From a virus, in IMG/VR virus record IMGVR_UViG_3300021341_000058, positions 1 to 23,016 of that record: DNA of 23,016 nt. One strand, 5' to 3'. Position numbers and translations under genes: made by a program. A model generated the notes under the pieces. It searched no databases. It saw only the letters and a program-made list of their open reading frames with translations, and was not told where the DNA came from. Each line of letters starts with the position of its first letter. Position 1 is the first letter of the stretch. Below, one piece after another: positions 6,818 through 15,671 of the stretch.

Positions 6818-7981
6818 TCAGTCGTTGCCGGCGAAATTTCGGTCGCGCTGGTCGCCTCTGCCCTGTCTCAGGGCGCTCGCATCGACAAGGAACTTGGCTT
6901 CGTAGCAGTCGTCGCGGACCGAGAACGGGTCCTCGTCGATCCCGAAATTCGCCTTCAGGGCGGCGGCCAGAAGCTGGCGCTGACGTTCGTAGCCGCGCTC
7001 GAACTGCGCGAGAATTCGGAGCAAGCCGCTCGCCGGTTGTCGCCCCTTTATGGTGCGGACCGGAAAGGCCCGCGGCAGGGCTCCGCCGAGGGCAGAGCAG
7101 GTGAGCAGAAGTCGCCACTGGCGGGTGGGCTTTCGGTTGCGTTCGTCGCGCATGCCGAGTTGATCCGGCTCGAAGCGCGCTGGCGGCTGTCCGCGAAAAC
7201 TGACGTTCAGCACCGCTTCCTCTCGGAAGGTGAATCGCAGATCCCCCCAGCGGGCCCCGACTGGCAGGACCATAACGGGGCCCGTTGCAGCGTCGCTCGG
7301 ACCGGCCAGTTGGGCGATCTCGGGTGCGAACAACTCGGCGGGCGACATGCTGGCGGCAAAAGCATTGCGGGGCGCTGTGGCGAACCCAAGACACTCTGCG
7401 AGCGTCAGTACGCGCCCGCGCCGGGCCGCGAGGAAGGGAGCGACATCGGACTCGATCGCCATGAGCGACGTCACGAGCAATACGAAGGGGAGATTGCGAC
7501 GGTCGAGTTCGAGGACATCGGCTCGTCCGAGCGGTGTGCGCGGACTCGCAAGCGATGCGAAGACAGGGAATGAGCGCCCAGCGGCGATTGCATGATCGCC
7601 AACGTTGAAGATGTGGGAACCCCGCTGAAGCTCGTCCGAAGGCACGAGCTCGAGCGCTGCGGCGATGTCTGCGAAGAGCTTGCGGTGATCCAGTTCGCGG
7701 ATCCGGATATCCTCTTGTGTTAGATCTAGCGCATCACAGAGGCGTCCCGGATCGCCGCAAACAGCGCGTACTAGGCCCCCCCTGTGCCGCACGACTTGGC
7801 GCGGACAGTTCTCACCGCCGGGCCAAGGGCAGTCGATCCGCTCTGCGTATCGCGACGTCTCCGGCAGATAACGCTTGGCGTTGGTCCAGCAGGACGCCAG
7901 TTCCGCACACCAATCGCGGGTGTCGCTCGCATGGCCTGGGATGCGTTCAATCGTCTTCCAGAACGCCAGCGTCATCGTCAT
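6818..7981 (-). CDS. Unknown cargo protein B with a four-cysteine N-terminal cluster
   Basis: A 387-residue protein, second gene of the leftward cassette. The most telling feature is a cysteine cluster: Cys51 and Cys59 (CPWPGGENCPR), Cys75 and Cys82 (AVCGDPGRLC), spaced like a zinc site. The middle (about 120-240) alternates short hydrophobic strands such as FPVFASL and LPFVLLVTSLMAIE with charged turns. The C-terminal 90 residues are Arg/Gln-rich and helical, which may contact nucleic acid. No nuclease, ATPase or membrane motif is evident. It overlaps the end of gene A by 35 bp. GAAGG lies 2 nt before the first ATG and 8 nt before a second in-frame ATG at 7975, so translation may begin at the latter. 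Its GC content is close to the phage average. Function unknown. Confidence 0.8.
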   Translation of the reverse strand: MTMTLAFWKTIERIPGHASDTRDWCAELASCWTNAKRYLPETSRYAERIDCPWPGGENCPRQVVRHRGGLVRAVCGDPGRLCDALDLTQEDIRIRELDHRKLFADIAAALELVPSDELQRGSHIFNVGDHAIAAGRSFPVFASLASPRTPLGRADVLELDRRNLPFVLLVTSLMAIESDVAPFLAARRGRVLTLAECLGFATAPRNAFAASMSPAELFAPEIAQLAGPSDAATGPVMVLPVGARWGDLRFTFREEAVLNVSFRGQPPARFEPDQLGMRDERNRKPTRQWRLLLTCSALGGALPRAFPVRTIKGRQPASGLLRILAQFERGYERQRQLLAAALKANFGIDEDPFSVRDDCYEAKFLVDASALRQGRGDQRDRNFAGND

Positions 7982-9137
7982 CGCCTTCGGGATTTGGCCG
8001 GCAGAACTTCTGATCCTTGAGCCAGCGGTCGATCAGGTCACTGTCTGCGTCACGGTCATAGCGCGCGAGGCTCGGCGGCAGAATTGCGACGGTGCGCTCC
8101 TTGCCGTCGCCGTCGAACCGGAATTTGAATACGGCGCGGTCAATAGAGCCACCCGACAGACGCCGCTTCCAATCACCTCCCCACGCGAGGAAGAGATCGG
8201 ACGCCTTGCGCACTTCCTTTTCCTTGGCCTTACCTCCCCAAAAGCGCTCGATTTCAATCAGTCGAACGCTGACGATCTCAGGGACAGTGTCATTCTCCAA
8301 TGCATCCTTTCCCTTTTCGAGGAGAGGATCGAGCGTGAACCTGTTGGATCGATCGAAGTATTTTTCATCCTTAAAGAGGGCGGTTCCGAGTGTATTCAGG
8401 TATAGTTCTATTTCACCCTTAGTGCCGGCGTTCACAGCGAGTTCGTCTGTTTCGCCATCGTAGATTATGACATCGTGCTTTTGAGGCCTGTAATAGGCAA
8501 TGCCAGATGCACCATCGTCCTCGTGGCGTCCTTCCCGACGCATCGGTTCTCCGTGACGAACAAGAAACCAGGTCTTTGTTCCTCGTGGAAATGCAAAAAT
8601 GCGGCTACCTTTCCCCCGACGCTTCTTGTCGAACCAAGAGTCCATGTTCTCCTGCATGAAGGCTGTCTGAGCAGGCGTTGGATCCGGAGCCGGGCCTTTG
8701 TTGCCGATACGCCCAGCAAAATAGATGAAGCGTGAGCGATTGAACGCAACGACTTCGGCATGTTGTCGACGAAGAAGTTCGGGATTTTGGAGCCAAATCT
8801 GGAGTGCGATGTCGGCATCCGAGGGTTCTTCACCTGCCTCGATCACAAGACCTGCCTTTGCCGCGGCATCGATCAGTTCTTCGGCCGATTCCTTGGTGGC
8901 GGTTTCGTGCACATAGTAAAGCGCATCAACCATCTCATGCGGGACTTTGTCGTCGGCCCTCATCAGGATCTGTGCGAGCCCGTCGTAGGGAAAGTCGTCC
9001 CCCGCCACTTCGGGTAGCTGCAAGCCACGATCCGAAAAGTAACCCTTCCAAGAGGAAAAGAATTTCAGGAGATGCTTTTGCGAAATGCTTTTGAGCCGGT
9101 CAGGATTCGTGAAGCTCCTAAAGTTTGTTGATGCCAT
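7947..9137 (-). CDS. Unknown cargo protein A, low-GC first gene of the cassette
   Basis: A 396-residue protein with no family I can name. The N-terminal 130 residues are mostly helical, with KHLLKFFSSWKGYF and a central QIWLQNPELLRRQHAEVVAF stretch. From about 177 it turns beta-rich, with conserved-looking blocks: RIFAFPRGTKTWFLVRHGEP (179-198), YYRPQKHDVIIYD (215-227) and NAGTKGEIELYL (236-247). The C-terminus is strongly acidic (GDDDDAGVLEDD). Base composition differs from its neighbours: 8341-8460 is 57 of 120 GC, and other sampled lines are near 52 percent, against about 67 percent in the primase gene. That suggests separate acquisition. AGGAG lies 11 nt before the ATG at 9137. It shares an overlapping operon with gene B. 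Defence, exclusion or toxin roles are speculation. Confidence 0.8.
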   Translation of the reverse strand: MASTNFRSFTNPDRLKSISQKHLLKFFSSWKGYFSDRGLQLPEVAGDDFPYDGLAQILMRADDKVPHEMVDALYYVHETATKESAEELIDAAAKAGLVIEAGEEPSDADIALQIWLQNPELLRRQHAEVVAFNRSRFIYFAGRIGNKGPAPDPTPAQTAFMQENMDSWFDKKRRGKGSRIFAFPRGTKTWFLVRHGEPMRREGRHEDDGASGIAYYRPQKHDVIIYDGETDELAVNAGTKGEIELYLNTLGTALFKDEKYFDRSNRFTLDPLLEKGKDALENDTVPEIVSVRLIEIERFWGGKAKEKEVRKASDLFLAWGGDWKRRLSGGSIDRAVFKFRFDGDGKERTVAILPPSLARYDRDADSDLIDRWLKDQKFCRPNPEGDDDDAGVLEDD

Positions 9138-9366: not shown

Positions 9367-9569
9367 TCGATCCCGACGAACGCGAACAGGCAGCCCTGCG
9401 GGCCGCCCTCCGCAACATGGCCGAACTCATGGCCGAGATCGGATGGACCACGCGGTTCGCTGATCTCAGCGAAGCACAGGCGCTCGCGCTCGCGACGGCC
9501 GCCGTCGACGGCTTCCAGGAGGCGATGCAGACCAGCGCACCCCGGCCCGATCCGGAGGTTCCGTTCTGA
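9363..9569 (+). CDS. Small DUF6511-like protein
   Basis: A 68-residue acidic, helical protein beginning MIDPDEREQAALRAALRNM, with EIGWTTRFADLSEAQALALA and ending after GFQEAM. The 'IGW..RF.DLSEAQ...L...AVDGFQEAM' pattern is one I associate with the end of DUF6511 proteins; this is from memory. No recognisable catalytic motif is present. The stop shares one base with the ATG of the nuclease gene (TGATG), so the two are probably translated together. Role unknown; it is the first clear gene of the rightward replication operon. Confidence 0.65.
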   Translation: MIDPDEREQAALRAALRNMAELMAEIGWTTRFADLSEAQALALATAAVDGFQEAMQTSAPRPDPEVPF

Positions 9570-10315
9570 TGGGCGCCGGTTTCGACTTCAACCATCGGGA
9601 GAAGCCGCCCAGTTTCGCGGACGCCGTCAATGCCTGCATCGACACCGCCCTCGTGGCGGAACAGGCCGAACGTCCCCAACGCGACTATCTCGGGGGAAGC
9701 CGGCTGGGCGACATCTGCCAGCGCAGGCTGCAGTACGAATACCTGAAGACGCCGAAGGACCCGGGCGCCGGGTTCTCGGGCAAGTCCCTGCGGATCTTCG
9801 CGCTCGGGCACGTTCTCGAGGACCTGGCCATCGCCTGGCTGCGCAAGGCCGGCTTCGATCTTCGCACGCGCAATCGACATGGCGATCAATTCGGCTTTTC
9901 GGTCGTGGGCGGACGTGTGCAAGGCCATGCCGACGGGGTGGTCGTCGCCGCGCCGAACGGCATGGCGGTTCCTGCGCTCTGGGAGTGCAAATCGGCGAAC
10001 GCCAAGAACTGGCGGGAAATCGCGAAGCACGGCGTCGGAAAGGCGACGCCGGTCTACGCCACCCAGATCGCACTCTACCAGGCCTATCTCGGCCTGACCG
10101 AGGCGCCGGCGTTCTTCACGGCGATCAACAAGGACACGTGCGAGATCTGGCATCAACTCGTGCCGTTCGATGCCGCACTCGCCCAGTCCGCCAGCGACAA
10201 GGCGGTGACGATCCTGCGCGCCTGTGATGCGGGCGAACTTCTTCCCCGCCACACGGCCGACCCCGACCACTTCGAATGCCGCTTCTGTGCGTGGCGGGAA
10301 CGGTGCTGGGCATGA
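9569..10315 (+). CDS. PD-(D/E)XK nuclease, Cas4/AddB-like with probable Fe-S cluster
   Basis: A 248-residue nuclease of the RecB/Cas4 group. Catalytic elements are in order: a helix with GHVLED (His81), GHADG (Asp122), ECK (Glu139 and Lys141) and the downstream QIALYQAY helix (Gln166). One cysteine early (Cys50 in GDICQRR) and three late (Cys237, Cys240, Cys246 in CRFCAWRERCW) match the split four-cysteine pattern that holds a 4Fe-4S cluster in Cas4 and AddB. These enzymes usually resect DNA ends. No cas genes are nearby. The neighbours are a DUF6511-like protein and a primase-helicase, so a phage replication/recombination exonuclease is likely. The stop overlaps the primase start as ATGA. 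Confidence 0.9.
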   Translation: MGAGFDFNHREKPPSFADAVNACIDTALVAEQAERPQRDYLGGSRLGDICQRRLQYEYLKTPKDPGAGFSGKSLRIFALGHVLEDLAIAWLRKAGFDLRTRNRHGDQFGFSVVGGRVQGHADGVVVAAPNGMAVPALWECKSANAKNWREIAKHGVGKATPVYATQIALYQAYLGLTEAPAFFTAINKDTCEIWHQLVPFDAALAQSASDKAVTILRACDAGELLPRHTADPDHFECRFCAWRERCWA

Positions 10316-12669
10316 CGGTCCCGTCCGACACCATCGCGCCCGACGACGTCGCGCCCGACACCGAAATGATCGCGATCTATTCCGAGGTCGTGTTCGGCTA
10401 CTGCGACGGTTGGGTGCCGGTCCGTGCGCTGGCCGAGAAAGGCGCGGGCGATGGTCCGCCGCATGTGCCCTTCATCGAAGCGGACACCACGCTCGCCGCG
10501 AAACTCGCGCTTCAGGCGACATGGGCGAGCGACGCTGGCATGGCCCTGTTCGTTGCGCCCGGCACAGTCGCGGCTCCCGGCGACGCGCGTGCGGAGAGCA
10601 TCGTCCAGACGCAGGTGGTGCTGGTCGATCTCGACCATGGCGACATCGGCGCGAAGCGCGACCATCTTGTGCAGCACCTCGGCTGCCCGACACTCGAAGT
10701 CGCGTCCGGTGGTGTCACCGCCGAGGGCCGGCGCAAGCTGCACCTCTACTGGCGTCTGACCGAGCCTGCCGAAGGCGACGACATCGCCACGGTCTGCCGC
10801 GCCCGGCACATGATCGCCGCGAAGGTCGGCGGCGACCCTTCGTTCCGGTCCGCGCACCAGCCGATCCGCGTGGCGGGATCGATCCACGCCAAACAGGGCC
10901 TTCGGCGGCTGGTGCAGATCCTGAACCACGATCCTCGCGATCACGACCTTGGCGAGCTGCTCGAAGCGATCATCGCGATGCCGCCGCTCGAAGGCGAGAA
11001 CGGGCTCGACTTCAACATGGCCGCCACCGAGCGCGGCAGCGTGACCGAGCTGTTCGGCCGCCAGGTTCGCGAAGGCGGCGTGGATGGCACAACGCGGTTC
11101 GACGCACTGTCGCGCGTGATCGGCTACTGGATCCGCCGTGCCCGCGAAGGCCACGTGCCGCGCGAACAGGCGTGGGAGGAAATCGTCTCCTACAACACGG
11201 CCCGCGTTGCCCCTCCCTGGCCGGAGGACCGGCTGCGCGAGGAAGCCGAACGCCTCTGGAAACGCGACGCCGCCCGAAACGGCGAGATCGATGACGAGGA
11301 TGACGGTCCCGATGGCGGCGGCCCTGCTGGCGGGGGGCATGATGGGCCGGTGCCGGTGCGCTTCACCGAGGATGCGCTCGCCGCAACCTTCGCCGCCCGA
11401 CATGCCGAGACATGGCGCTACGTCGCCGGCTGGGGGCAGTGGCTGACCTGGTCGGGCAAGCTCTGGCGGCGCGAGGAGACGCTGCAGGCCTTCGATCTGG
11501 CCCGGATGATCTGCCGCGAGGCGGCGGCGCGCGCCGGGTCTGCACGGCTCAAGGCGAAGCTTTCCAGCGCCGCGACCGTGTCCGCCGTGGAGCGGCTCGC
11601 CCGTTCCGACCGCCGCCACGCAACCACGACCGAGCCGTGGGATCGCGATCCCTGGCTATTGAACACGCCCGGCGGCGTGGTCGACCTGCGTAGTGGCGCG
11701 TCGCTGCTGCACGACCCCGGCCTCTTCATGACTCGCATCGCCGGGGCATCGGTCGCCGACGCTTGCCCCGTCTGGCTCGGGTTTCTCGAAACCGTCACGG
11801 GCGGGGACGGCGAACTGCAATCCTACCTGCAGCGCATGGCGGGCTACTGCCTGACGGGCGTGACCACCGAGCACGCGCTGTTCTTCCTCTACGGCACCGG
11901 CGCAAACGGGAAATCCGTTTTCGCCAACACCCTGACCGCCATCCTTGGCGACTACGCCACCGTCGCGCCGATGGACATGTTCATGGCCACGCAGGGTGAT
12001 CGCCACCCGACCGACATGGCGGGCCTGCGCGGGGCGCGCATCGTCACGTCCATCGAAACGGAACAGGGCAGCCGCTGGGCCGAGAGCAAACTCAAAGCGC
12101 TGACCGGGGGCGACAAGATCACGGCCCGCTTCATGCGGCAGGATTTCTTCGAGTTCATCCCGCAGTTCAAGCTGCTGATCGTCGGCAACCACAAGCCTTC
12201 AATCCGCAACGTCGATGAGGCGATGAAGCGGCGTCTGCACATGGTGCCGTTCACGGTCACCATCCCTCCTGCGAGGCGCGACAAGCACCTGGCGGACAGG
12301 CTGCTGGCGGAACGTGACGGGATCCTCGCATGGGCGCTCGAAGGCTGCATCGAATGGCAGCGGACAGGGCTGCGCCCTCCGCCCGCCGTGATGGCTGCGA
12401 CTGAGGATTACTTCGAGGCCGAGGACGCCATCGGTCGCTGGATCGACGAGCGCTGCTCTGTCGGGTTGCACCTCAGCGCCAGCACCTCCGCGATGTTCGC
12501 CGACTGGAAGGCGTGGGCCGATGCGAACGGCGAGTTCGCAGGGTCGGTCAAGCGCTTCTCGGAAGCCCTGATCGTCCGGGGATTCGAGCGTCACAACACC
12601 CGCGCCGCGAAGGGATTCCGGGGCATCGCCCTCGATGACAGCAACTCTGACCTTTTCTCGGGAGAATAG
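10312..12669 (+). CDS. Phage P4/D5-type primase-helicase
   Basis: A 785-residue replication protein starting at the ATG of ATGA at 10312. A longer frame starting at 10276 lies inside the nuclease gene. The N-terminal third looks like an archaeo-eukaryotic-type primase: VLVDLDHGD with Asp106 and Asp108, HLYWRL (144-149), and RVAGSIHAKQG (186-196). A Gly/Asp-rich linker follows at about 327-345. The C-terminal half is a D5-type superfamily 3 helicase with Walker A GTGANGKS (528-535), preceded by a D5_N-like region and followed by an IVTSIETEQG segment. It should prime and unwind DNA at the phage origin. The related P4 alpha protein binds iterons, and such repeats lie immediately downstream. Length fits the family. 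Confidence 0.93.
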   Translation: MTVPSDTIAPDDVAPDTEMIAIYSEVVFGYCDGWVPVRALAEKGAGDGPPHVPFIEADTTLAAKLALQATWASDAGMALFVAPGTVAAPGDARAESIVQTQVVLVDLDHGDIGAKRDHLVQHLGCPTLEVASGGVTAEGRRKLHLYWRLTEPAEGDDIATVCRARHMIAAKVGGDPSFRSAHQPIRVAGSIHAKQGLRRLVQILNHDPRDHDLGELLEAIIAMPPLEGENGLDFNMAATERGSVTELFGRQVREGGVDGTTRFDALSRVIGYWIRRAREGHVPREQAWEEIVSYNTARVAPPWPEDRLREEAERLWKRDAARNGEIDDEDDGPDGGGPAGGGHDGPVPVRFTEDALAATFAARHAETWRYVAGWGQWLTWSGKLWRREETLQAFDLARMICREAAARAGSARLKAKLSSAATVSAVERLARSDRRHATTTEPWDRDPWLLNTPGGVVDLRSGASLLHDPGLFMTRIAGASVADACPVWLGFLETVTGGDGELQSYLQRMAGYCLTGVTTEHALFFLYGTGANGKSVFANTLTAILGDYATVAPMDMFMATQGDRHPTDMAGLRGARIVTSIETEQGSRWAESKLKALTGGDKITARFMRQDFFEFIPQFKLLIVGNHKPSIRNVDEAMKRRLHMVPFTVTIPPARRDKHLADRLLAERDGILAWALEGCIEWQRTGLRPPPAVMAATEDYFEAEDAIGRWIDERCSVGLHLSASTSAMFADWKAWADANGEFAGSVKRFSEALIVRGFERHNTRAAKGFRGIALDDSNSDLFSGE

Positions 12670-12673
12670 GAAA

Positions 12674-13303
12674 ATGCCAATGAATTCAGAGAGTGTGACG
12701 GATGTGACGGATCATACCTATAAGACCGTTACGCGCGCGCATGTGCGCGCCTGTGGAACAGATAGGGAACTATCCGTCACATCCGTCACACCCGTCACCA
12801 ACCCTCCTGTGCGGATGGAGGACGGTGGCGGACTGCTCCCGTGCATCCTCGCGCTCGACCTCGGCACCTCGACCGGCTGGGCGATCCGCGGCCATGACGG
12901 TCTGATCACCAGCGGCACCGTCTCGCTGCGCCCCGGCCGCTTCGATGGCGGCGGTATGCGCTACCTGCGCTTCACCAACTGGCTGACCCAGATCGACCGG
13001 CTGTCCGGGCCCGTCGCCGCCATCTGGTTCGAGGAAGTCCGCCGCCACGCGGGCACCGACGCGAGCCATATCTACGGCGGGCTCATGGCCACGCTGACCG
13101 CATGGGCCGAGCTGCGCGGCGTGCCCTACGAGGGCGTCCCGGTCGGCACGATCAAGCGCCACGCCTCGGGCAAGGGCAACGCCGACAAGGCCGCCATGGT
13201 CGCCGCCGTCCGTGCTCGCGGCTTCAGCCCAGCCGACGATAACGAGGCCGACGCCATCGCGATCCTGCTCTGGGCGATCGAGACGAACGGAGGTGTCGCA
13301 TGA
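12674..13303 (+). CDS. RuvC-like Holliday junction resolvase with repeat-encoded N-terminus
   Basis: A 209-residue protein with an RNase H-like core. Motifs are ALDLGTSTGWAI (Asp62), IWFEEVRR (Glu120), IKRHASGKGNADK (160-172) and a final acidic DDNEADAIAI (Asp189, Asp193), as in phage RuvC-like resolvases. It probably cuts branched DNA before packaging. The first 47 residues are unlike the family (SVTDVTD, then SVTSVTPVT), because they are encoded by 9-bp repeats. I chose the ATG at 12674 since GGAGAATAGG precedes it. The in-frame ATG at 12815 (MEDGGG) would give a 162-residue protein of ordinary length but has no clear ribosome site. A third ATG at 12635 lies inside the primase gene. Confidence 0.85.
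   Translation: MPMNSESVTDVTDHTYKTVTRAHVRACGTDRELSVTSVTPVTNPPVRMEDGGGLLPCILALDLGTSTGWAIRGHDGLITSGTVSLRPGRFDGGGMRYLRFTNWLTQIDRLSGPVAAIWFEEVRRHAGTDASHIYGGLMATLTAWAELRGVPYEGVPVGTIKRHASGKGNADKAAMVAAVRARGFSPADDNEADAIAILLWAIETNGGVA
12693..12798. repeat. Inverted clusters of 9-bp iterons, candidate phage origin
   Basis: Two copies of GTGACGGAT (12695-12703, 12704-12712) face three copies of the complement: ATCCGTCAC at 12772-12780 and 12781-12789, and ACCCGTCAC at 12790-12798 with one change. The arms form a perfect 20-bp inverted repeat (12693-12712 with 12772-12791). The 59-bp spacer has an AT-rich stretch and a hairpin of GCGCGC around ATGT (12735-12750). TGTGGAACA at 12752-12760 is a 7 of 9 match to a DnaA box complement. 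Position just after a P4-type primase gene suits an origin. Confidence 0.6.
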
Positions 13304-13500
13304 GATGGCATCCCCATGGCTACGGCGGCCGACGCCGGGATCCCGAGCAGGTCAAGCGCGAGGGCTGGCAGGAACAGGGCGTCCTCGCGGTCTCCGCCGA
13401 TGACGACCGCCTCACCTGGCCCGAGCGTGAACTGGTCCGCCAGCTCGGCGAGAAGCTATACGGCCCGCGTTCCTCCGACAGGGAGGCGCGCCATGGCTGA
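13300..13500 (+). CDS. Small basic hypothetical protein
   Basis: A 66-residue protein beginning MRWHPHGYGGRRRDPEQVKR. The N-terminus is rich in Arg, His and Gly, followed by LTWPERELVRQLGEKLYG, which is likely one helix. The ATG overlaps the resolvase stop as ATGA, and the end overlaps the next start by 8 bp. I recognise no named family. The positive N-terminus could bind nucleic acid. Its fixed place before a DUF6362-like gene suggests a shared role, but nothing more can be read. Confidence 0.65.
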   Translation: MRWHPHGYGGRRRDPEQVKREGWQEQGVLAVSADDDRLTWPERELVRQLGEKLYGPRSSDREARHG

Positions 13501-13873
13501 TCGCGAATGGACCGCCGACTGCGTCGCCGATCATTTCGAGGAGGCGTTCCGCACGCTGCGCAAGCTGCCGCCGGTGAAGGCGCAGGGCTACTTCAACACC
13601 TGGCCCGACATCGTGCGGACCAGCCGCGAGATCGCGGCGATGGAACCCCAGCCGATGCGGGTCTGGCCCTCGGCCGCCGCGATCACCCGGCTCGAGCAGA
13701 CCTTCGACTGGGTGCTCTGGATCGAGGAGGCGGAGCGCAAGCTGGTCTGGTCGCGCGCCGCCCGCGTGCCGTGGAAGCAGATCAGCGGGGAACTCGGCTG
13801 CGACCGCACGACCGCATGGCGGCGTTGGCAGCTGGCGCTGACCAAGATCGCTGCGCGCCTGAATGCGCAGTGA
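13493..13873 (+). CDS. DUF6362-like HTH protein
   Basis: A 126-residue protein. Residues 34-90 (FNTWPDIVRTSREIAAMEPQ, then VWPSAAAITRLEQTFDWVLW) match what I remember of DUF6362. Residues about 92-112 (VPWKQISGELGCDRTTAWRR) are a clear helix-turn-helix. The start at 13493 has GGGAGG 6 nt upstream; the longer in-frame reading from 13316 overlaps the previous gene and has no such site. Sigma-like or TerS-like HTH proteins of this size occur late in phage replication operons, so a transcriptional or DNA-packaging regulator is possible. It is the last gene before a palindrome-rich gap. Confidence 0.78.
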   Translation: MADREWTADCVADHFEEAFRTLRKLPPVKAQGYFNTWPDIVRTSREIAAMEPQPMRVWPSAAAITRLEQTFDWVLWIEEAERKLVWSRAARVPWKQISGELGCDRTTAWRRWQLALTKIAARLNAQ

Positions 13874-14288
13874 CTCCAATGTGTTGCAACACTTTTCCCT
13901 TCGACATCTGCAACAGATCCATGCTATTCCGAAGGCAAGATGGGGAGAGTGCGCTGGAAGGCTCGCTCTCCCCTTTGCGCTGACGGGGGCCTTCTGGACC
14001 CCGGTATCCAGCGAGGGTCCGGCCGGGGTCCAGCCCGAGGGAGTTTCCGGTTCCTTCCTGGCGATATTCGTATGCTGGCGGGCGAAGCGCGGGACATCGC
14101 CAGCGACAGGACCGGATTTTTGGGAAGCCACCCGGAAGCCGGAGCCACGCGCGCCCCGCGCAAACACCAATGAACGCTGGCCTTCCGACCGGCACCGCAG
14201 GTGGCCGCTGGACCCCGTGTGGAGTCCAGCCCGGCATCCGGAGTCCGGAAGCCACCGGCATCCACCCGACCAAGGAACCTTGCCCACC
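13874..14288. other. 415-bp gap with several palindromes and no convincing gene
   Basis: The stretch holds a perfect 12-bp palindrome GTGTTGCAACAC (13881-13892), a hairpin at 13942-13973, an 11-bp inverted repeat CTGGACCCCGG/CCGGGGTCCAG (13994-14004, 14023-14033) and a 7-bp pair GCTGGAC/GTCCAGC (14207-14213, 14224-14230). Similar CTGGACCCC-type extragenic palindromes are common in alphaproteobacteria as I recall. Two small frames, 13940-14173 (77 codons) and 14170-14292 (40 codons), chain by ATGA to the methyltransferase start. The first has only about two thirds GC at third positions and the second has no clear ribosome site, so I do not call them genes. The long upstream extension of the methyltransferase frame here is also not credible. 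Confidence 0.5.
13942..13976 (+). terminator. Possible terminator after the DUF6362-like gene
   Basis: GGGGAGAG (13942-13949) pairs perfectly with CTCTCCCC (13966-13973) around a 16-nt loop, followed by only three T residues. It lies about 70 nt after the stop at 13873. The stem is good but the loop is long and the T run short, so termination may be weak. Confidence 0.35.
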
Positions 14289-15671
14289 ATGACGCTGAGC
14301 TTCGCCCCGGACGCGATCGAGACGTGGCCGCTGTCGCGCCTCCAGCCCTACGCGAAGAACGCGAAGGCGCATGGCCCGGACCAGGTCGCGAAGATCGCCG
14401 CCAGCATGGCGGAGTTCGGCTGGACCGTGCCGTGCCTCGTCGCCGACGACGGCGAGCTGATCGCGGGGCACGGGCGCGTGCTGGCCGCGACGCAACTGGG
14501 GCTGACGGAAGCGCCGGTCATCGTGCTGGGCCACCTGACCGAGGCGCAGCGCCGGGCGTACCGCATCGCCGACAACAAGCTGACCGAACTCGGCACCTGG
14601 GACGAGGCGCTGCTGTCGGCGGAACTGAACGATCTGCTGGCCGAGGATTTCGACCTCTCGCTGGTCGGCTTCTCCGACGGCGAGTTGGACAAGCTGCTGG
14701 CCTTCGTGCCGGAGGGGGACGGTGAAGAAGGTGGCGCCGGGGGCTCCGTGCCGCCGGTGACCATCCCCGAACCGCCGCGCAATCCGGCGTCCCGCACCGG
14801 CGATCTGTGGATCCTTGGCGACCATCGGCTGCTCTGCGGTGACAGCACCAGCGCGGTTGATGTGCGCCGCCTGATGAATGGCGAACGGGCGATCCTGTTC
14901 GCAACTGACCCGCCATATCTTGTGGACTACGACGGTTCGAACCATCCGACCCGCAACAAGGACTGGTCGGCGTCCTATGGCACGACCTGGGACGACAGTT
15001 CGCAAGGAGCCGAGCTTTACGACGGCTTCATTTCCGCCGCCGTGGCGGAGGCCATCGCCGAGAATGCTGCATGGTATTGCTGGCATGCCTCGCGCCGCCA
15101 GGCGATGCTCGAGGCCTGCTGGGAAAAGGCCGGGGCCTTTGTCCATCAGCAGATCATCTGGGTGAAGGACCGCGGGGTTCTTACCCGGTCGCATTATCTG
15201 TGGAAACACGAGCCCTGCTTCATGGGCTGGCGGCGTCCGAACCGCCCGCCCAAGGTCGCCGAGGAAACGCTGCCGTCGACCTGGGAGATGCCCAGCTTCG
15301 CGAAGGACGAGCGCCCCGACCACCCGACGCCGAAACCGCTCGACGCCTTCGGCATCCCGATGCGCCAGCACGTCGCCCGAGGCGGCCTCTGCTACGAGCC
15401 CTTTTCTGGGTCGGGTTCGCAGATCATCGCAGGCGAGGCCAACGGCCGCCGCGTCTTCGCGATGGAAATCAGCCCGGCCTACATCGATGTCGCCGTTGAA
15501 CGCTGGCAGGCCGAAACCGGCAAGGACGCGATCCTCGACGGCGACGGCCGGACCTTCGCTGAGGTGAGGACCGAGCGGCTGGGCGACGATGCCGAACCAC
15601 CGGCCGAGACGCCGGACACGGACGCCGAACCCGAACCCGAACCCGCGCGAAAGCGCAAGTCCGCCGCATGA
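14289..15671 (+). CDS. ParB-like nuclease / DNA methyltransferase fusion
   Basis: A 460-residue fusion. Residues about 10-140 form a ParB N-terminal-type domain: LQPYAKNAKAHGPDQVAKIA, the GHGR motif (60-63) and YRIADNKLTELGTWD. After a Pro/Gly linker comes a DNA methyltransferase with TDPPY (motif IV, 206-210) and a late EPFSGSG (motif I, S-adenosylmethionine binding). Motif IV before motif I indicates the beta class, which makes N6-methyladenine or N4-methylcytosine. No restriction enzyme gene adjoins it, so it is an orphan that probably marks phage DNA against host restriction or regulates it. The target cannot be read. The start at 14289 is the first ATG at the domain boundary; AAGGAA lies 11 nt upstream. 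The C-terminus is an acidic Pro/Glu tail. Confidence 0.9.
   Translation: MTLSFAPDAIETWPLSRLQPYAKNAKAHGPDQVAKIAASMAEFGWTVPCLVADDGELIAGHGRVLAATQLGLTEAPVIVLGHLTEAQRRAYRIADNKLTELGTWDEALLSAELNDLLAEDFDLSLVGFSDGELDKLLAFVPEGDGEEGGAGGSVPPVTIPEPPRNPASRTGDLWILGDHRLLCGDSTSAVDVRRLMNGERAILFATDPPYLVDYDGSNHPTRNKDWSASYGTTWDDSSQGAELYDGFISAAVAEAIAENAAWYCWHASRRQAMLEACWEKAGAFVHQQIIWVKDRGVLTRSHYLWKHEPCFMGWRRPNRPPKVAEETLPSTWEMPSFAKDERPDHPTPKPLDAFGIPMRQHVARGGLCYEPFSGSGSQIIAGEANGRRVFAMEISPAYIDVAVERWQAETGKDAILDGDGRTFAEVRTERLGDDAEPPAETPDTDAEPEPEPARKRKSAA

Follow-up and report, generated by a model that had tools for sequence, protein, structure and literature searches.

For most temperate phages with P4-family primases, the replication origin is unknown. 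In the window analyzed here (the whole stretch of 23,016 nt, positions 1 to 23,016 of the viral record IMGVR_UViG_3300021341_000058), a symmetric cluster of 9-bp repeats stands where the gene for such a primase ends and a RuvC-like resolvase gene begins. The question raised by this locus is whether the cluster serves as the replication origin and, if so, which protein reads it. The sequence-only reading had described two direct copies of GTGACGGAT facing three inverted copies across 59 bp, with arms that form a perfect 20-bp inverted repeat. Both descriptions were confirmed (Table 1), the arms at 12693-12712 and 12772-12791 being perfectly complementary with 59 nt between them. Exact copies of GTGACGGAT occur four times in the whole 23-kb window, all within the element; when one mismatch was allowed, 8 copies were found across the window and 7.2 were expected, which is chance level. 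The unusual feature is the arrangement of the repeats and not the frequency of the 9-mer.

Table 1. Features of the locus, with positions in the window and the basis of each entry.
Feature	Position	Strand	Basis or remark
P4/D5-family primase-helicase, 797 aa, proposed initiator	10276-12669	+	TIGR01613, D5_N, DUF5906, PHROG, fold
C-terminal winged-helix region (about aa 731-797), proposed iteron-binding domain	12466-12666	+	AlphaFold2, Mantel
Lys759 codon	12550-12552	+	N-terminus of predicted recognition helix GSVKRFSEAL
RuvC-like resolvase gene	12674-13303	+	PHROG 159, E 6e-28, residues 71-219 of 222-aa ORF; start at 12674 probable
Iteron 1, GTGACGGAT	12695-12703	+	Exact copy
Iteron 2, GTGACGGAT	12704-12712	+	Exact copy
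21-nt alternating pyrimidine-purine tract, TACGCGCGCGCATGTGCGCGC	12730-12750		Mid-spacer; candidate melting or Z-DNA-prone core
Iteron 3, inverted	12772-12780	-	Exact copy
Iteron 4, inverted	12781-12789	-	Exact copy
Iteron 5, inverted, GTGACGGGT	12790-12798	-	1 mismatch

The gene upstream of the element had been taken for a P4-type primase-helicase, and this assignment stands. Its product scored 339.9 bits against TIGR01613 (phage/plasmid primase, P4 family), for which the cut-off is 108.7, and it also matched D5_N, DUF5906 and a PHROG annotated as DNA primase. The helicase half, including the C-terminal domain, superposed on the SaPI5 primase-helicase 7ola over 388 residues (Z 29.7, rmsd 4.6). 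An AlphaFold2 model of this half (440 residues, 48 sequences, mean pLDDT 86) placed helices at 380-393 and 401-410 and strands at 414-417 and 422-429 of the 440-residue numbering in the C-terminal part, and a winged helix is thus predicted after the SF3/D5 helicase. Residue 759 (position 402 of the model) lies where helix 401-410 begins; this helix and the two strands that follow it are predicted to form the recognition helix and wing of the winged helix. The helicase half shares 100% identity with its counterpart at a locus of Paracoccus versutus DSM 582, which makes Paracoccus or close kin the probable host of the phage. Elsewhere in the window, an ORF at 13863-15671, about 1.1 kb from the candidate origin, encodes ParB-like and N6/N4 DNA methyltransferase domains (PHROG 498 and 620; Pfam N6_N4_Mtase). 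Two long ORFs on the minus strand at 6818-9137 (387 and 396 aa) matched no Pfam or PHROG family and may be chance ORFs of GC-rich sequence.

Relatives were collected by two kinds of scan of viral and genome contigs, one with the primase and one with the DNA motif alone, which together gave several hundred loci. An inverted repeat of 16 nt that paired at 14 or more positions was scored as an element when it lay no more than 300 nt beyond the primase stop codon. In a nonredundant set of 51 primases (less than 88% identity in the helicase half), 42 had such a repeat and 9 had none at this threshold, compared with 0 of 51 shuffled sequences. The usual layout was a pair of opposed tandem arrays directly 3' of the primase stop, with an outer span that changes little (83 to 110 bp) and 2 to 4 inverted copies. 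Autocorrelation of the arms reached 0.61 at a shift of 9, compared with 0.20 to 0.30 at the other shifts from 4 to 14. The search with the tandem motif alone returned 120 viral contigs, of which 41 had an inverted partner at 50 to 130 bp and 79 had none. A P4-family primase stop lay within 400 bp in 35 of those 41 contigs but in only 2 of the 79. Many matches to the tandem motif alone, given the 79 without a partner, are probably due to chance. Three exceptions (L006, L087 and L114) do carry P4/D5-type primases, which the first model had missed. In L006 and L114, whose P4-type primases are more distant, GTGACGG arrays (near 9377-9570 and near 823, respectively) lie within the 3' part of a long primase frame, another arrangement of an origin within coding sequence. 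Two near primase relatives, L264 and L268, had no recognizable downstream element, and in L264 the resolvase gene begins almost immediately after the primase; the origin of these two is therefore elsewhere or of a different look.

The iteron unit itself differs among phages (GTGACGGAT, CTGACGCAG, GTGGCGGAT, CTGACAGAT, GTGCCAGAT, CTGAAGGAT, TGACCGAAG and others). The best 16-nt match between left and right arm averaged 15.2 positions when both arms came from one element, 12.6 when they came from different elements and 9.8 in shuffled sequence. The copies of one element vary in concert, as expected for sites with a single protein reader. Iteron distance did not follow the distance between helicase cores (r 0.05) but did follow that between C-terminal domains when the helicase core was controlled for (partial Mantel r 0.33, p 0.001, 38 loci). 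Among the 440 columns of the helicase half, residue 759 ranked first for the seventh iteron base, with mutual information of 0.850 of a possible 0.994 bits (next column, 0.637). Lysine at this residue occurred with GTGACGG-type iterons in 65 cases and with GC-type iterons in 3, and arginine occurred with GTGACGC-type iterons in 53.

The same association was recovered along the branches of two trees. On the helicase-core tree, 9 of 12 inferred base changes fell on branches with a K/R change at 759 (hypergeometric p 9e-11), and no other C-terminal column tested did as well. A tree of the C-terminal domain with column 759 removed, which takes account of a possible co-transfer of domain and origin, gave 5 of 6 coincident changes (p 8e-8). 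These p-values are guides only, since the tests rest on parsimony and approximate trees and the loci share ancestry. The Lys759 codon lies about 145 bp from the iterons, and joint transfer by recombination could inflate the number of coincident changes. Three further scans provided 86 additional distinct C-termini, of which 61 were unambiguous (Lys/GG, 40; Arg/GC, 21; off-diagonal, 0), although these came partly from clades already sampled and so make a weaker test than new lineages. A further specificity type was seen in L588, L589, L600, L601 and L603, in which the helix is GTSRWLAQ, not GSxKRFSE, and the iteron is TGACCGAAG; TGGCGG units pair with a GSMKRF helix. Because an iteron base covaries with a residue in the predicted DNA-binding domain of the adjacent primase-helicase, we infer that this protein binds the iterons. 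From the sequence comparisons taken together, it is very probable that the element is the phage replication origin, recognized by the P4/D5-family primase-helicase encoded immediately upstream. The earlier suggestion of a likely origin is in this way supported by the relatives and by the residue-base covariation.

The spacer between the arrays had been described as containing a GC hairpin and a degenerate DnaA box. The first is better described as a centered tract of alternating pyrimidines and purines. In 37 elements, the tract averaged 21 nt, consisted mostly of CG with CA, TG and TA steps and was located at 0.48 ± 0.04 of the spacer. It reached at least 16 nt in 32 of the 37; among 65-nt windows drawn at random from these loci, 0.4% had a tract of at least 17 nt. 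The alternation is better conserved than the hairpin potential, since the latter (5.4 pairs) exceeds only slightly that of shuffled dinucleotide units (4.9 pairs). The supposed DnaA box, TGTGGAACA, was not conserved; close relatives have TGTGGAGCG in its place, and the exact DnaA-box pattern was found in 0 of 37 spacers. A DnaA-dependent origin was accordingly rejected. No AT-rich unwinding region, which is typical of P4/SaPI-type iteron origins without strictly defining them, was found among the iterons, the GC content of the spacer being 55% in the window and 60% in the family mean. Alternating pyrimidine-purine DNA is prone to Z-DNA formation or distortion under supercoiling. We tentatively propose a P4-family code, which we place slightly on the doubtful side, in which recognition-helix residue 759 would specify G (lysine) or C (arginine) at the seventh base and opening would occur at the conserved, alternating, Z-DNA-prone core and not at an AT-rich element. 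A literature search confined largely to open papers found neither a description of a Z-DNA core in such origins nor one of this element from Paracoccus phages.

The position of the element relative to the RuvC-like gene depends on the start codon of the latter. The probable start is the ATG at 12674, preceded by GGGAG at 12660-12664, from which the iterons would be read as part of the resolvase N terminus; from the alternative in-frame ATG at 12815, beyond the element, the element would precede the gene. In the alphaproteobacterial members that bear RuvC, the frame is mostly open across the element with an ATG upstream. In some of them (L026, L206, L280 and L158), no start codon occurs from the element to the RuvC core, and translation of the iterons is therefore likely. 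Members of other clades have either a closed frame or a start codon beyond the element, and 32 elements have no RuvC core downstream. The origin thus probably overlaps the N-terminal codons of the RuvC-like gene in the alphaproteobacterial members, including the window.

To this overlap the sequence-only reading had added that the DNA pattern, and not the protein, seems to be under selection, and the comparison of relatives bears this out. The encoded peptide VTDVTD becomes LTDLTD, MTDMTG, VTQMTQ or FTGLTG in different relatives, and L158 has its right arm in a different frame. The relatives keep the 9-mer pattern while the peptide is altered, frame-shifted or absent, and the converse, a peptide kept over varying DNA, was not found among them. 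When 25 close relatives were aligned to the window, the arms diverged in 0.6% and 0.3% of cells and none of their 3 variable sites fell at a third codon position. In the same 25 relatives, the RuvC core diverged by 10%. Third positions accounted for 139 of its 255 variable sites and for 54 of 69 in the 3' part of the primase gene. Because the arms are nearly invariant without third-position bias, and because the element elsewhere lies outside any resolvase frame, these data show that selection acts on the DNA and not on the encoded peptide. A Holliday junction resolvase also follows the primase and repeats in Listeria phage PSA (L353) and in Mycobacterium phage Adephagia (L355), where it is RusA-like. 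This suggests a conserved order of primase, origin and resolvase in which the resolvases are exchangeable.

Phage P4 has a separate crr site, of which no counterpart was noticed in the window, where there is a single repeat cluster. The proposed initiator resembles P4 alpha, a primase-helicase of several functions in which a winged helix at the C terminus binds the iterons of the origin, although the primase domain of P4 alpha is of the TOPRIM type (summarized in PMC4234260). Parallels also come from staphylococcal elements: according to PMC7581432, the C-terminal domains of SCCmec Cch2 and SaPI Rep recognize iterons directly downstream of their own genes. The SaPI Rep/ori system (SaPI5 structures 7ola and 7om0) shares short iterons 3' of the helicase gene, which a C-terminal domain reads in SaPIs and is predicted to read here, and the fold match given above covers that domain; the window differs in iteron sequence, in its 9-bp head-to-head arrays, in its GC-rich alternating center and in being carried by a proteobacterial phage. 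Cch2 is likewise a Primase_Cterm/D5_N helicase, and its C-terminal domain on its own binds direct repeats 3' of its gene, but the putative SCCmec origin has just three 5-bp AAGTG direct repeats, inverted repeats are dispensable for binding and no alternating tract is described in the relevant passages of PMC7581432. In Lactobacillus phage phi-adh, the annotated rep_origin (13084-13469 of NC_000896.1) begins where a homologous P4-family primase gene ends (37% identical over 339 aa). It also has repeated 7-mers in tandem copies and in both orientations around a spacer; the repeats there are GTGTAGGGTT and AACTATACAC, in several arrays, and the spacer is AT rich. Listeria phage PSA, Mycobacterium phage Adephagia and Bacillus phage vB_BteM-A9Y have repeats of their own at the corresponding place. 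The tandem short repeats beside an initiator gene that characterize P4/SaPI-type origins are present in the window, and we class the element as a variant of this type, not as a plain member, because it lacks an AT-rich unwinding region.

Other functions for the element were weighed against that of an origin. Symmetric intergenic repeats are typical of operators, and the residue-base covariation indicates a binding protein, so that the iterons could instead be a site at which the primase-helicase or another regulator controls the RuvC-like and later genes with no role in replication. We consider this improbable: a scan of 12500-13000 found no sigma-70-type promoter or terminator consensus, the element is kept in the 32 cases in which the next gene is not RuvC, and the corresponding place is an origin in P4-family relatives (phi-adh record; PMC7581432). 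The element may also be used both as an operator and as an origin. Alternatively, the functional form could be a structured RNA or a single-strand stem-loop, a hairpin of about 100 nt like that proposed for the archaeal plasmid pRN1. The plasmid has a large symmetric element 3' of an SF3-type primase-helicase gene, and replication requires an intact stem-loop of about 100 nt there (PMC4234260). The element strand has a strong predicted fold (z = -9.0 compared with 200 shuffles), and the complementarity of the arms is kept through sequence change. In pRN1, however, the stem-loop is free of iterons and was not found to be bound specifically (PMC4234260), whereas arms of the window type pair and also consist of tandem iterons whose sequence follows a protein residue. 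The direct copies in an arm covary, which a hairpin does not require, and inverted copies vary from 2 to 4 without partners. Arm mismatches carry no clear RNA signature (8 G-T compared with 5 A-C, both small counts), and Rfam returned only matches below the gathering score, to animal miRNA families. The concerted direct repeats and the covariation with a winged-helix residue favor reading of the sequence as a duplex, and we regard the stem-loop as quite improbable. Bordetella phage BIP-1 has been cited for a stem-loop origin (PMC4234260); in the near-identical BPP-1, which has a related primase, no such 12-nt inverted repeat was found downstream of the primase.

The genes that follow the element suggest two further functions. 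The palindrome could be a resolvase substrate or recombination site, extruding into a cruciform that the RuvC-like protein cleaves, given that a RuvC-like gene lies downstream in most members and a resolvase likewise in phages PSA and Adephagia. Retention of the element in the 32 cases without a downstream RuvC core and the location of the specificity residue in the primase make this very unlikely. Iterated sites are also typical of centromeres, and the ParB-like methyltransferase protein is encoded nearby, but the position of the element is tied to the primase gene and its sequence follows a residue in the primase C terminus; a partition site for that protein is accordingly given almost no credence.

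The preferred reading remains that of an origin read by the primase-helicase. In the mechanism that we propose, the C-terminal winged helix would bind the 9-bp iterons by way of its predicted recognition helix, which begins at Lys759, as the covariation suggests, and iteron DNA (GTGACGGATGTGACGGAT) is the expected target of this domain. By symmetry and by analogy with SaPI-type initiators, the head-to-head arrays would place two helicase oligomers on either side of the spacer of about 60 bp. The spacer, with its alternating tract, would then be distorted or melted, after which the SF3 helicase would unwind outward and the primase domain would prime, as expected from the family. We infer that replication starts at the element. 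GC skew in AcaML1, phi-adh and five viral contigs had no consistent turning point at the element, and there was none at the annotated phi-adh origin either.

The element is organized like the origins of SaPI, SCCmec and phi-adh and differs from them in its symmetric 9-bp iterons, its centered alternating tract and its probable overlap with the 5' end of a RuvC-like gene. It provides a case in which an origin probably lies inside the coding region of its neighbor, with the DNA under selection. It also raises the question of why a GC-rich alternating tract is found where an AT-rich melting site is expected. The origin, its reader protein and a residue-base contact are here proposed jointly from sequence alone, and if the recognition code is true, the origin specificity of many uncultured phages would be readable from their sequences.
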